64,000 bases of DNA. Source: Sphingobium sp. BYY-5. Its GTDB lineage: Bacteria; Pseudomonadota; Alphaproteobacteria; Sphingomonadales; Sphingomonadaceae. Each line of letters opens with the position of its first letter. The stretch's first letter is position 1. Shown here one piece after another: positions 21,082 to 62,584 of this stretch. The stretch covers positions 806,001 through 870,000 of the forward strand of contig NZ_JALEBH010000001.1 of assembly GCF_022758885.1 (NCBI RefSeq), given 5' to 3'. The notes under the pieces were generated by a model. That model was not told the origin of the DNA. It ran no database searches and was given only the letters and a program-made list of their open reading frames with translations. A program made the translations under genes and the position numbers.

Positions 21082-21151
21082 CTGTTCCCCGGCGAAGGTC
21101 GGGGTCCAGTTCGAACCGTGGAACTGGACCCCGGCCTTCGCCGGGGAACAG
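21082..21151. repeat. REP-like inverted repeat, CTGTTCCCCGG type
   Basis: Two 31-base arms (21082-21112 and 21121-21151) are inverted with one mismatch and an 8-base spacer. Each arm is itself a palindrome (CCCCGGC/GTCGGGG). A second member of this subtype lies at 62515-62584. It lies between the nth stop and the DUF6491 start and may act as a transcript end. Confidence 0.8.
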
Positions 21152-36337: not shown

Positions 36338-36425
36338 CGTCATCCCCGCGAAGGCGGGGATCCATCTCCAACCCCATCCCCGGCGGGAGGTCGGGAGATG
36401 GGTTCCCGCCTTCGCGGGGATGACG
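36338..36425. repeat. REP-like inverted repeat, CGTCATCCCCGC type
   Basis: Arms 36338-36369 and 36394-36425 are inverted copies with a few mismatches; each arm is itself palindromic (ATCCCCGC/GCGGGGAT). It lies between the dehydrogenase and decarboxylase genes of the polyamine set, so the message between them can fold strongly. Confidence 0.85.
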
Positions 36426-52814: not shown

Positions 52815-53723
52815 TCAGTCCACCCAGTCCAGCCCGATGTCGCGATAGATGAAGCGGTCGTCCTCCCAATCCTCCTTCACCTTGACATGGAGGTAGAGGT
52901 GGACCTTGACGCCCAGCAGGTTGGCCAGTTCGGCGCGGGCTGTTGAGCCGATTTCCTTGAGGCGCTGGCCGCCCTTGCCCAACACGATGGCGCGCTGGGT
53001 CGGGCGGGCGACCAGGATTTGCTGGTGGATTTCGACGGATCCGTCATCGCGCTCCTTATATTGTTCGGTGTCGACAGCAGCGGCGTAGGGGAGTTCAGCG
53101 TGGAGTTGGTGATAGAGCTGCTCGCGGGTGATTTCCGCCGCCATCATCCGGTCGGTGGCGTCGGACACCTGATCCTCCGGGAAGTGCCATGGCCCCTCCG
53201 GCATGGCCTTGGCGAAGGCGGTCTTGAGTTCGGCAAGCCCATCCCCGGTCGCGGCGGAGATGAAGAAAGTCTCCTCGAAGCCGATCCGTTCGTACAGCTT
53301 CTGGGTATGGACCAGCAGCTTTTCCTTGATCGAAATGTCGACCTTGTTGAGGATCAGCCATTTGCGTTCCGGGCGGTGGATGAGCGCTTCGACGATCGGC
53401 TCCATCTTGGGGCCAAGGCCCGCCTTGCCGTCCACGATGAGCGCAATCAGGTCCGCGCCCTGCGCGCCGCCCCAGGCGGCCTGCACCATCGCGCGATCCA
53501 GCCGCCGCTTGGGCGCGAAGATGCCGGGCGTATCGACCAGCACGAGTTGTGCGTCGCCCTCAATCGCGACGCCCATGACGCGGGTCCGCGTGGTTTGCGC
53601 CTTGGGGCTGGTGATCGCCACCTTTTGCCCCACCAGCGCGTTCACCAGCGTCGATTTTCCCGCATTGGGCGCACCGACGATCGCGATAACGCCGCAGTGC
53701 TGGGAATTCATATCAGTTGTCAA
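52815..53723 (-). CDS. era: GTPase Era
   Basis: 302 residues. G1 is GAPNAGKST, G2 has TTRTRVMG, G3 DTPG, G4 NKVD, and a C-terminal KH domain has VLGKGGQRLKEIG. Era assists 16S rRNA maturation and 30S assembly. The start is either TTG 53723, with GGAG six bases upstream that lies at the edge of the REP-like repeat, or ATG 53711 with no visible ribosome-binding site. It should follow rnc directly but is separated from it by the GIY-YIG cassette. Confidence 0.95.
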   Translation of the reverse strand: MTTDMNSQHCGVIAIVGAPNAGKSTLVNALVGQKVAITSPKAQTTRTRVMGVAIEGDAQLVLVDTPGIFAPKRRLDRAMVQAAWGGAQGADLIALIVDGKAGLGPKMEPIVEALIHRPERKWLILNKVDISIKEKLLVHTQKLYERIGFEETFFISAATGDGLAELKTAFAKAMPEGPWHFPEDQVSDATDRMMAAEITREQLYHQLHAELPYAAAVDTEQYKERDDGSVEIHQQILVARPTQRAIVLGKGGQRLKEIGSTARAELANLLGVKVHLYLHVKVKEDWEDDRFIYRDIGLDWVD

Positions 53724-53732
53724 ATAACACTC

Positions 53733-53758
53733 CGTTCGCCCTGAGCTTGTCGAAGGGC
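53733..53758. repeat. REP-like palindrome, left flank of the GIY-YIG ORF
   Basis: CGTTCGCCCTGAGCTTGTCG followed by AAGGGC. It directly adjoins the GIY-YIG stop codon (53760) and is the inverted counterpart of 54071-54097 with one interior mismatch. Confidence 0.85.
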
Positions 53759-53759
53759 C

Positions 53760-54047
53760 TTACTTTTCTTTGTGTGATCGCGCCAAGCTGGAGATCAATG
53801 TCCAATCCTCACGGATAAGAGCGAGCTTCTTAGCCCGGCTCCAGCCCTTGATCTGCCGTTCGGCCTCAAGCGCCTCCATACGCATGTCGAACGATTGCGA
53901 CCAGACCAGTTTTATGGGCAGGCGTGTCTGGGTGTAGCCGGGGATTCCACCCTGGTCATGCTGGCCAATCCGTTGTTCCAGATTGTCGGTATGCCCGACG
54001 TAGAAACTACGGTCCGCGCAATGGAGCATGTAGGTCCAGAAGGCCAT
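53760..54047 (-). CDS. Small GIY-YIG endonuclease domain protein
   Basis: 95 residues. The GIY-YIG core is complete: the first motif as TYMLHCAD, the second as FYVGHT, catalytic Arg in LEQRIGQH, and the metal-binding Glu in ALEAERQIKGWSRAKK. It is a stand-alone nuclease domain of the UPF0213/YhbQ size class. It sits between rnc and era, flanked on both sides by inverted copies of a REP-like repeat, which suggests it is a mobile cassette rather than a native operon member. Known function: none proven for this subgroup. Confidence 0.9.
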   Translation of the reverse strand: MAFWTYMLHCADRSFYVGHTDNLEQRIGQHDQGGIPGYTQTRLPIKLVWSQSFDMRMEALEAERQIKGWSRAKKLALIREDWTLISSLARSHKEK

Positions 54048-54070
54048 GCTTGGAGTAAAGAGGAAATAAA

Positions 54071-54097
54071 GCCCTCCGACAAGCTCAGGGCGAACGG
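54071..54097. repeat. REP-like palindrome, right flank of the GIY-YIG ORF
   Basis: Inverted copy of 53733-53758 (begins GCCCTCCGACAAGCTCAGGG), 24 bases upstream of the GIY-YIG start and 16 bases from the rnc stop. A short palindrome GGGAATTTCCC (54103-54113) fills the remaining gap to rnc. Confidence 0.85.
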
Positions 54098-54113
54098 GTT
54101 CTGGGAATTTCCC

Positions 54114-54785
54114 TTAACCCGCCAGCTTCTCCAACAGCGCTTTGGCCGCCGCCGTCTCCGCTTCCTGCTTCGATGCGCCGGTGGCGCTCGCTTCGCCTGC
54201 GCCCTTGATCGACACCGTTACGGTGAAGCGCAGCGCGTGTTGCGGGCCGGAGCGGTCGGTCAGTGCATATTCGGGGGGCTTGCGCTTGTTGGCGGCGGCC
54301 CATTCCTGAAGGTAGGATTTGGGGTGGCGCGGCGCGCTGGTCTGGGTATCGACCCGGCTGCCCCACAGGCGGCGGACGAGCGCGCGTGCCTCCTCCAGCC
54401 CGGCTTCCAGATAGAGGGCGCCGATCAGCGCCTCCATCACGTCGCCCAACACATTGTCACTGTCCGCGGCGCCATCGTCGCGGGCCTGCTTGCCCAGGAT
54501 CAGATGCGTAGGCACGCCGGCGGCGCGCGCCACGTCGGCGCAGGTCTCGCCCGACACCAGCGCATTGTAGCGGCGGGAGAGCTTGCCTTCCGGCTCGTCG
54601 ACGAAGCGTTCATAGACCCATTCGCCGATCAGCAGGCCGAGGATGCGATCGCCCAGGAACTCCAGCCGCTCATAGTTCAGCGCCTTGGCGCTGCCATGGG
54701 TTAGCGCCTGTTCGAACGCCGCCCGGTTCTTGGGCGCGCGGCCGATCAGTTCCTTCAGCCAGCCATCGGTGTCAGGCTTACTCAA
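54114..54785 (-). CDS. rnc: Ribonuclease III
   Basis: 223 residues. The catalytic signature NYERLEFLGDRILGL and second acidic site DNVLGDVMEALIGA are intact, and a C-terminal double-stranded RNA-binding domain ends in AAAKALLEKLAG. The start is TTG 54785, overlapping the lepB stop as TTGA; the longer frame to 54833 lies in lepB. It processes rRNA and structured RNAs. Confidence 0.95.
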   Translation of the reverse strand: MSKPDTDGWLKELIGRAPKNRAAFEQALTHGSAKALNYERLEFLGDRILGLLIGEWVYERFVDEPEGKLSRRYNALVSGETCADVARAAGVPTHLILGKQARDDGAADSDNVLGDVMEALIGALYLEAGLEEARALVRRLWGSRVDTQTSAPRHPKSYLQEWAAANKRKPPEYALTDRSGPQHALRFTVTVSIKGAGEASATGASKQEAETAAAKALLEKLAG

Positions 54786-55606
54786 AAGCCTTCCCCGATG
54801 CGGCTCCAGCGAGCGGCGGTGAACCAGGTCCAAGGGAGCAACCAGTTGGCGCTGCCATCGGTGGAGAAGACGGAGATCATCGCCTTGCCGACCAAATTCT
54901 CTTCCGGGACCAGGCCGATGCCACCGTTCTCGACCGCCGGAAAGCGGCTGTCGGCGCTGCGATCGCGATTATCGCCCATCATGAAGAGATGACCTTGAGG
55001 CACCAGCACCGTGTCGCGATCATCCGCCGCGCCGTCCTGAACCAGGTCGAGGACGTTGTAGCTTTTGCCGCCGGGCAGGGTTTCGCGGAACTGGGGATAG
55101 CGGCACTGTTTGCCGCCGCCGGGTGCGGCTTCTTCAAATTCGGGGCGATAGCAGGGGTAAGGGTTGCCTTCCTTGGTGGCGGCGGCCTCCATATTGGGCG
55201 TCACCGGTATGACCAGGTCGGCGACCTTCTGCTTGGGTATTGCCTGGCCGTTCAGATAGACGGTCCCGCCGCGCACCGCGATCATGTCGCCGGGCAGGCC
55301 GATGACGCGCTTGATATAGTCATTCTTCTGGCTCGGCGGGGCCTTGAACACCACCACGTCGCCGCGCTGGGGCGTGGAGGCGAAGATGCGGCCGGGGATC
55401 AGCGGGATGCTGAACGGCAGCGAATAGCGCGAATAGCCATAGGGCCATTTGGCGACCAGCAGATAATCGCCGATCAAAAGGCGCGGCTGCATCGATTCCG
55501 ACGGGATGTTGAAGGGCGATATGATGAAGCTGCGCAGGATGAAGACGAACAGGCCCAGCTTGGCGAGAAACCAGATGAAGTCCCGCGTTTCGGATTTGGC
55601 TGTCAT
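54782..55606 (-). CDS. lepB: Signal peptidase I
   Basis: 274 residues from ATG 55606. One N-terminal membrane helix precedes the catalytic Ser in NIPSESMQP; the general-base Lys is in DYIKRVIGLPGD, and the later boxes GHLFMMGDNRDRSADSR are present. Two Cys in the inserted loop (YPCYRPEF, KQCRYPQF) may form a periplasmic disulfide. It cleaves signal peptides of exported proteins. First gene of lepB-rnc-era. Confidence 0.95.
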   Translation of the reverse strand: MTAKSETRDFIWFLAKLGLFVFILRSFIISPFNIPSESMQPRLLIGDYLLVAKWPYGYSRYSLPFSIPLIPGRIFASTPQRGDVVVFKAPPSQKNDYIKRVIGLPGDMIAVRGGTVYLNGQAIPKQKVADLVIPVTPNMEAAATKEGNPYPCYRPEFEEAAPGGGKQCRYPQFRETLPGGKSYNVLDLVQDGAADDRDTVLVPQGHLFMMGDNRDRSADSRFPAVENGGIGLVPEENLVGKAMISVFSTDGSANWLLPWTWFTAARWSRIGEGF

Positions 55607-62514: not shown

Positions 62515-62584
62515 CTGTTCCTCGGCGTAAGCCGGGGTCCAGTCCGACGGTTCGAACTGGACCCCGGCCTGCTCCGGGGAACAG
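62515..62584. repeat. REP-like inverted repeat, CTGTTCCCCGG type
   Basis: Arms of about 32 bases (62515-62546 and 62553-62584) share the CTGTTCC...CGGGGTCCAGT layout of the copy at 21082-21151. They end seven bases beyond the pgm stop codon. Confidence 0.8.

Follow-up and report, generated by a model that had tools for sequence, protein, structure and literature searches.

We found that a gene for a small GIY-YIG nuclease lies between rnc and era in Sphingobium sp. BYY-5, enclosed by inverted copies of a palindrome from a dispersed REP-type family. The cassette is likely a minimal REP-nuclease unit, in which the stand-alone GIY-YIG protein is the dedicated enzyme of the flanking TTCG-tagged family, while other families, in particular that of the CGTC-tagged REPs, have sister proteins as their enzymes.

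Anatomy of the cassette in the rnc-era gap

The window, i.e. the whole stretch of 64,000 nucleotides that was analysed, carries the nuclease gene on the minus strand at 53760..54047 as an ORF of 95 amino acids plus stop codon. The flanking host genes, era (52815..53723) and rnc (54114..54833), are also on the minus strand; the identity of era follows from the same gene at this junction in relatives and from its annotation as era at locus L334. The left palindrome (53732..53758, plus strand) points with its head away from the gene, and the right one, an inverted copy (54071..54097, minus strand), lies upstream of the ATG of the nuclease gene, its head likewise outward. The original prediction of a GIY-YIG ORF between inverted palindromes in the rnc-era gap is real: the ORF, the repeat arms and both neighbours were recovered, and so were the short distances, with 1 base between the left palindrome and the stop codon of the nuclease gene and 16 bases between the right palindrome and the rnc stop. 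Read from outside to inside, the left palindrome consists of the head CCGTTCG and the stem-loop GCCCT-GAGCTTGTCGA-AGGGC, the last G of the head doubling as the first base of the stem; the right copy differs by a single change on the loop side (GAGCTTGTCGG). The inverted arms extend to 34 nt (53732-53765 and 54064-54097, 91% complementary) and are the longest of the eight inverted pairs listed for the 1-kb region. Altogether, the cassette measures 366 bp and occupies most of the gap.

The protein matches the Pfam GIY-YIG domain (E 3.1e-18), and Pfam revealed no extra domain beyond this core within the 95 amino acids; an NCBIfam search gave no match over the cut-offs. Tyr, Arg, His and Glu are the catalytic residues of the GIY-YIG domain. 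In alignments of 54 and 53 rows, Y6, G18, R26, H30 and E63 are invariant and Y16 is nearly so; with Y6, R26, H30 and E63 all in place, the protein is predicted to be a catalytically intact member of the family, as had been proposed. Its closest PDB entries by sequence are the UPF0213 proteins 1zg2 (BH0048) and 1ywl (EF2693). Its homologues number 1,076, a large set of proteins named just ‘GIY-YIG nuclease family protein’. A pattern scan of viral contigs matched 2 and 15 stretches, none of them a relative. The C-terminal tails of P0061, P0087, P0105 and others, e.g. LRQAQDER, resemble a translated palindrome, which seems to have been absorbed into the reading frame there.

The shape of the palindrome was analysed with 106 distinct units, in which the loop is nearly invariant and the stem varies in step. 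Stem pair 7-25 is paired in 89 of the 106 units compared to a maximum of 60 after shuffling, and stem pair 8-24 in 85 (shuffled maximum 59). Conservation of the loop is partly built in, because the units were chosen by their core, which does not apply to the stem. The subset from the own genome is small (17 distinct units from 30 loci), and its covariation is not decisive alone. Since the 5-bp stem folds weakly by itself (z -0.7), recognition of the folded palindrome by the nuclease is likely rather than certain.

Four repeat families of one genome, each with a GIY-YIG gene

Allowing up to two mismatches, the core 14-mer of the palindrome occurs in the 64-kb window at the two cassette sites only. 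The expected number is 0.33, and because two sites were reached in 6 of 100 shuffles, the count alone is weak evidence and it is the arrangement that carries the evidence. Throughout the genome, we identified 98 sites with at most one mismatch compared to 1 for a reversed-pattern control. The claim that such palindromes are scattered through the window was therefore wrong; they are scattered genome-wide, and the window carries different REP families instead, among them the pairs 36338/36408, 21087/21129 and 62520/62562. The pair at 36338-36425 is gene-less, head-out and CGTC-tagged, and its family also flanks a cassette of the same genome at the junction that we take to be lysE-pheS. Palindromes of the CCCCGGCG type, for which the window gave 7 matches and 0.26 are expected, form one pair at 21087-21146 and another at 62520-62579; they are akin to the family flanking a GIY-YIG gene at C1:1731756.

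Four small GIY-YIG genes of the genome are enclosed by inverted palindrome pairs, with a different family for each gene. Besides the TTCG-tagged family of the window cassette with its 98 sites, these are the CGTC-tagged family CGTCATCCCCGCG... (83 sites, cassette copies at C1:2335768 and 2336162), the CACCCCGGCG... family (46 sites, cassette copies at 1731657 and 1732007) and the GTGCTCCTGCG... family (32 matches in 29 places, cassette copies at 1726238 and 1726575); reversed-pattern controls for the latter three gave 0 each. In all four families, head-out pairs at a short, fixed distance predominate, and every family has one wider pair with a distinct GIY-YIG gene inside. Among TTCG core sites at most 100 bp apart, 30 of 32 are arranged plus-then-minus with heads outward and 42-62 nt from start to start, so that the gene-less pairs have the geometry of the cassette minus the gene. 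The head-out order was likewise found in 26 of 27 (CGTCATCCCCGCG), 14 of 14 (CACCCCGGCG) and 12 of 12 (GTGCTCCTGCG) cases for sites less than 100 bp apart; the spacing is 64-74 nt in 25 of the 26 CGTC pairs, and 40-41 and 49-56 nt in the remaining two families. The CACCCC pairs are mostly of a TTCCCC variant, two mismatches off the cassette's own copies. We also observed that CACCCCGGCG-type and CGTCATTCCGG-type palindromes are paired 55-61 nt apart, i.e. two tags can share one pair (G000:C1 391921-391998, 416904-416981, 1838578-1838656, 3320329-3320407 and 3374666-3374743).

In total, the genome encodes ten GIY-YIG domains. Repeats of the type CGTCATTGCGAGCG... enclose a degenerate fifth copy (L038, one TGA), and a weak TTCG-like pair (score 14.5) encloses a sixth (L031). 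No flanking repeat was detected at score 14 for L034, L035 and L040; L039, a GIY-YIG domain within a 663-aa frame, was left out of the scoring. A second gene of the clade of the window protein (W clade), 55% identical, is found at C1:577211. Strict single copy is not universal, since some genomes carry up to three W-clade genes, for only part of which the repeats were examined; overall, the nuclease gene seems to be low-copy and mostly inherited at few sites.

A search for the Y1 transposase (PF01797) gave no match in this genome, and the same search was positive in 5 of 14 control genomes. We therefore rejected the idea that the palindromes are a property of RAYTs. The analogy to RAYTs drawn at the outset is strengthened by these data, as four families each have a distinct cassette in a genome without a RAYT.

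Flanking repeats in homologues

Named genomes yielded 321 homologue loci, of which we kept the best 80 as a sample of the W clade and scored 78 (L053 and L055 were dropped for short flanks). Inverted repeats joining both flanks with a score of 14 or more, hereafter strong, surround 66 of the 78 genes and are absent in the other 12; among 780 windows placed at random in these loci, 1 had them. The objection that random windows are an unfair control, since their flanks fall into coding DNA, was dismissed by a gene-based control, in which none of the 325 further genes that do not border the cassette had such flanks. With the bordering genes included, 416 genes gave five positives, each a cassette neighbour sharing its palindromes. 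The arrangement is thus above chance. In 61 of the 80 loci, the core (up to two mismatches) lies no farther than 500 bp from the gene on one side or both, with 47 loci having it on both; other loci have variant palindromes. Cores on both sides were found in Sphingobium, Sphingomonas, Erythrobacter, Gallionella, Methylobacter and a contig filed as Dadabacteria.

The 80 loci represent about 24 neighbourhoods, a count that short contigs may inflate. Only 15 sit at rnc-era, one of them judged from the era side alone, which argues against a pattern peculiar to this junction and contradicts the notion that homologues are always at rnc-era and free of palindromes. A Sphingomonas replicon filed as a plasmid carries a cassette with flanking repeats (L333); strong flanking repeats are missing from a second plasmid-filed Sphingomonas gene (L334), which is located at rnc-era. 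Distant GIY-YIG proteins (L144-L150 and yazA of B. subtilis, L337) had no repeat at that level.

A search of 299 Pseudomonadota genomes with a CGTC-linked protein as query was positive in 134. Flanks of 90 loci of this C clade were examined and 88 scored (L302 and L314 were dropped for short flanks). Strong inverted repeats flank 56 of 88 genes compared to 4 of 880 windows, or 54 of 86 after removal of two genes fetched twice, and are absent in 32 of 88. Many of these repeats have the CGTC tag, short stem and paired units of CGTC-tagged REPs, which are further characterized by a loop of 4-5 nt; an example is CGTCATCCCCGCGAAAGCGGGGACCC at L036, and the hairpin has a 7-bp stem and a 4-nt loop. 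In two Neisseria gonorrhoeae records, a relative lies among dRS3-like repeats, and neisserial dRS3 resembles the CGTC-tagged REPs; the tags of the nearest copies point toward the gene, opposite to the orientation in sphingomonads. For CGTC-tagged REPs, stems of 8-9 bp are given in a table of PMC3733652. A C-type gene in a plasmid record of Planktothrix agardhii (L336) has GTCATTCTGAG-type repeats nearby, with an MmeI-type restriction gene on one side and drmA on the other.

Repeat type tracks protein clade

We compared protein clade and repeat type in a table of 212 rows of GIY-YIG genes, which correspond to 207 distinct loci (L035/L271, L078/L122, L110/L125, L249/L273 and L251/L285 were entered twice). 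The W clade comprises 73 TTCG rows, none with CGTC only, 7 matching both expressions, 8 with other repeats and 25 with none. The C clade comprises 52 CGTC rows, none with TTCG only, 1 matching both, 17 with other repeats and 29 with none. The labels are strict, as a looser TTCG expression took in eight C-clade repeats that are non-TTCG by eye; the clade of a row was set by the query used, and the totals match an assignment by best BLAST score except for two undecided rows. Hence, the two protein clades track the two repeat superfamilies, with crossing not clear in any row. Within the TTCG superfamily, the subtypes A, B and C require eight changes on the protein tree (n = 80), fewer than in any of 200 shuffles (mean 23.4, lowest value 20); the tree itself is poorly resolved (23 of 204 forks starred).

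The association is also evident at the level of genomes, where presence of a clade was defined as E below 1e-20. Within the order, a W-clade member is encoded by 23 of 147 genomes, and at least 20 core copies were counted in 18 of these 23 compared to 8 of the 124 others (p 7e-13, uncorrected for phylogeny). The palindromes are thus not equally common in genomes lacking the protein, yet copy-rich genomes without it exist: G097 (148 copies), G118 (84), G130 (73), G074 (36), G140 (33), G123 (28; same genus), G138 (28) and G136 (23). Conversely, G043, G126, G124, G112 and G143 encode the protein and have 0-8 canonical copies; the repeats at L136 (G143) and L137 (G124) are of a different subtype missed by the core pattern. 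For the CGTC pattern, at least ten copies were present in 23 of 66 genomes with and 21 of 233 genomes without a C-clade protein (p 1.5e-6), the latter including G325 with 771 copies because its split hits (5.9e-19) miss the cut-off.

Presence and absence of cassettes at host junctions

Junctions lacking the cassette were to be sought in related genomes, and they exist. Of 94 genomes of the genus, we obtained 90 rnc-era junctions (all except those of G164, G204, G210 and G230). The gene is present in 23 junctions, in some of them in pieces, palindromes only in 2 and neither of both, by these tests, in 62; three were not scorable, including L183 with the gene on a cut contig. One of the two palindrome-only junctions, L222 (G123), holds a gene-less pair. 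The CGTC cassette occupies the lysE-pheS junction in 16 of 30 fetched genomes, and the gap is 434-467 nt long with the cassette (15 measured) and 70-148 nt without (12 measured). According to inspection by eye, many gene-less junctions of both kinds retain bases resembling element ends and may therefore be remnants or targets; no target duplication was identified. In the congeners L155, L156, L165, L168, L177, L188 and L189, the rnc-era gap holds other palindrome families and no cassette. The gap is a recurrent landing or retention site for palindromes.

Proposed mechanism and alternative explanations

From the established anatomy, the specific pairing, the pair geometry, the covariation and the presence or absence of cassettes, we infer how such a unit might recognize, cut and mobilize its repeats. 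In single-stranded form, the palindrome would fold into a hairpin, of which the nuclease would recognize the conserved head and loop, leaving the stem free to vary as long as pairing holds. It may then nick or cut at the element ends, at the head of the palindrome, and host repair could copy or move the REPIN-like head-out pairs that lack a gene and are spaced by about 40-75 nt. GIY-YIG enzymes hydrolyse DNA, and covalent strand transfer is not expected of them; for this reason, completion of the spread is assigned to the host. We know of no GIY-YIG enzyme with strand-transfer activity.

This last point also weighs on a reading in which the 366-bp cassette jumps autonomously, the palindromes being its terminal repeats and the gene-less pairs its MITE-like deletion derivatives. 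The number of neighbourhoods, the cassette with flanking repeats on the plasmid-filed replicon (L333) and the end geometry kept in gene-less pairs speak for it. Given the low copy number of the gene, the rnc-era position common to many Sphingobium, the plasmid-filed L334 at that same junction with no strong repeat, and junctions that by eye display no target-site duplication, we regard it as rather doubtful, although it overlaps with the REP-nuclease unit and the two are not mutually exclusive. A free-standing homing endonuclease that cuts cassette-less rnc-era alleles and is copied in by repair would fit the present and absent alleles at this single site, and the GIY-YIG fold does occur in homing enzymes (PMC1564403). 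We consider this very unlikely, as Pfam shows the GIY-YIG core only, sister cassettes occupy many sites and the repeat at the flanks belongs to a dispersed family instead of being a site-specific target.

The nuclease might also be an ordinary resident gene whose dispensable intergenic flanks accumulate REPs that are moved by other means. REPs are indeed described as mostly intergenic (PMC3733652), and the rnc-era gap gathers other families in congeners. Such a passive hotspot is improbable in view of matching families in inverted order on both flanks, an order that none of the 325 non-adjacent genes has, of repeat types that follow the protein clade, of four families in one genome that each hold their own GIY-YIG gene, and of the absence of a Y1 transposase from that genome. 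About equally improbable is a role as regulator or caretaker, in which the nuclease trims hairpins of palindromes in DNA or RNA, the flanks serve autoregulation and the repeat is not spread; cruciform repair, mRNA processing and self-regulation belong here. Stem covariation fits a hairpin in either nucleic acid, and one palindrome is located in the 5' leader and the other at the stop codon. Neither the fixed-spacing head-out pairs across the genome nor the presence and absence of the cassette among congeners is explained by such a role itself.

Relation to known repeat systems

The REP-nuclease unit closely parallels REP/REPIN-RAYT systems and GTAG REPtrons (PMC3116915, PMC8266576, PMC3733652). 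REPINs, pairs of palindromes in inverted order with preferred spacing, were described in Pseudomonas, where each RAYT is a distinct, single-copy nuclease beside its own repeat family (PMC3116915). As judged from the accounts in these papers, the two have in common a distinct nuclease for every such family of the own genome, encoded between palindromes of that family, inverted pairs that are dispersed and keep a preferred spacing (30 of 32 head-out here, with three other families likewise) and an unpaired tag beside the hairpin. A distinct single-copy nuclease was found for each of four families in the own genome. They differ in the enzyme, which is GIY-YIG rather than HUH/Y1 and whose activity on the repeats is here a proposal, and in the tag, which is CCGTTCG, or CGTC in the C clade, and not GTAG. 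The repeats lie next to no Y1/HUH transposase (PF01797) and no GTAG tag stands beside the palindrome. The cassette system would thus work like a RAYT and is none, as both the defining enzyme and the tag are different.

CGTC-tagged REPs are known from several phyla and were reported to be apparently devoid of a dedicated transposase (Di Nocera 2013, PMC3733652). The same tag and hairpin flank many C-clade genes, and in the own genome also form head-out pairs; as far as the relevant parts of that paper go, it names no transposase gene, whereas we find a GIY-YIG partner. UPF0213 proteins (1zg2 BH0048, 1ywl EF2693, B. subtilis YazA) share the small GIY-YIG domain, but yazA lies between trmNF and rsmI and has no strong flanking inverted repeat. 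MITEs resemble the present elements in their gene-less inverted-repeat pairs and a possible coding partner; here, however, the ends are themselves hairpins, no target duplication was seen and the enzyme is no known transposase. Among the PMC papers listed, we found no link between GIY-YIG proteins and REP-type repeats by title, term counts and the start of abstracts, a scope outside which lie most subscription papers and the bioRxiv preprints, so that a prior report is possible; a term search of PMC12306157 and PMC1564403 likewise gave no such link in the text covered.

We conclude that the GIY-YIG proteins are dedicated nucleases of REP families without a RAYT, RAYT-like and of unrelated fold, which would cut and mobilize their repeats. 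Beyond this, we lean slightly towards the broader view that dispersed non-GTAG palindromes (CGTC REPs, the TTCG family and probably others) are propagated by dedicated GIY-YIG nucleases that co-evolve with them family by family across Pseudomonadota, as a second, independently evolved RAYT-like solution. Our results provide a specific pairing of enzyme and repeat, with several independent pairs inside one genome, and suggest that small nucleases between their own palindromes are an overlooked class of enzyme-plus-repeat selfish DNA. If this holds true, REP-type repeats would have originated two or more times around nucleases that are unrelated, and a likely role could be assigned to a large number of ‘GIY-YIG nuclease family protein’ entries.
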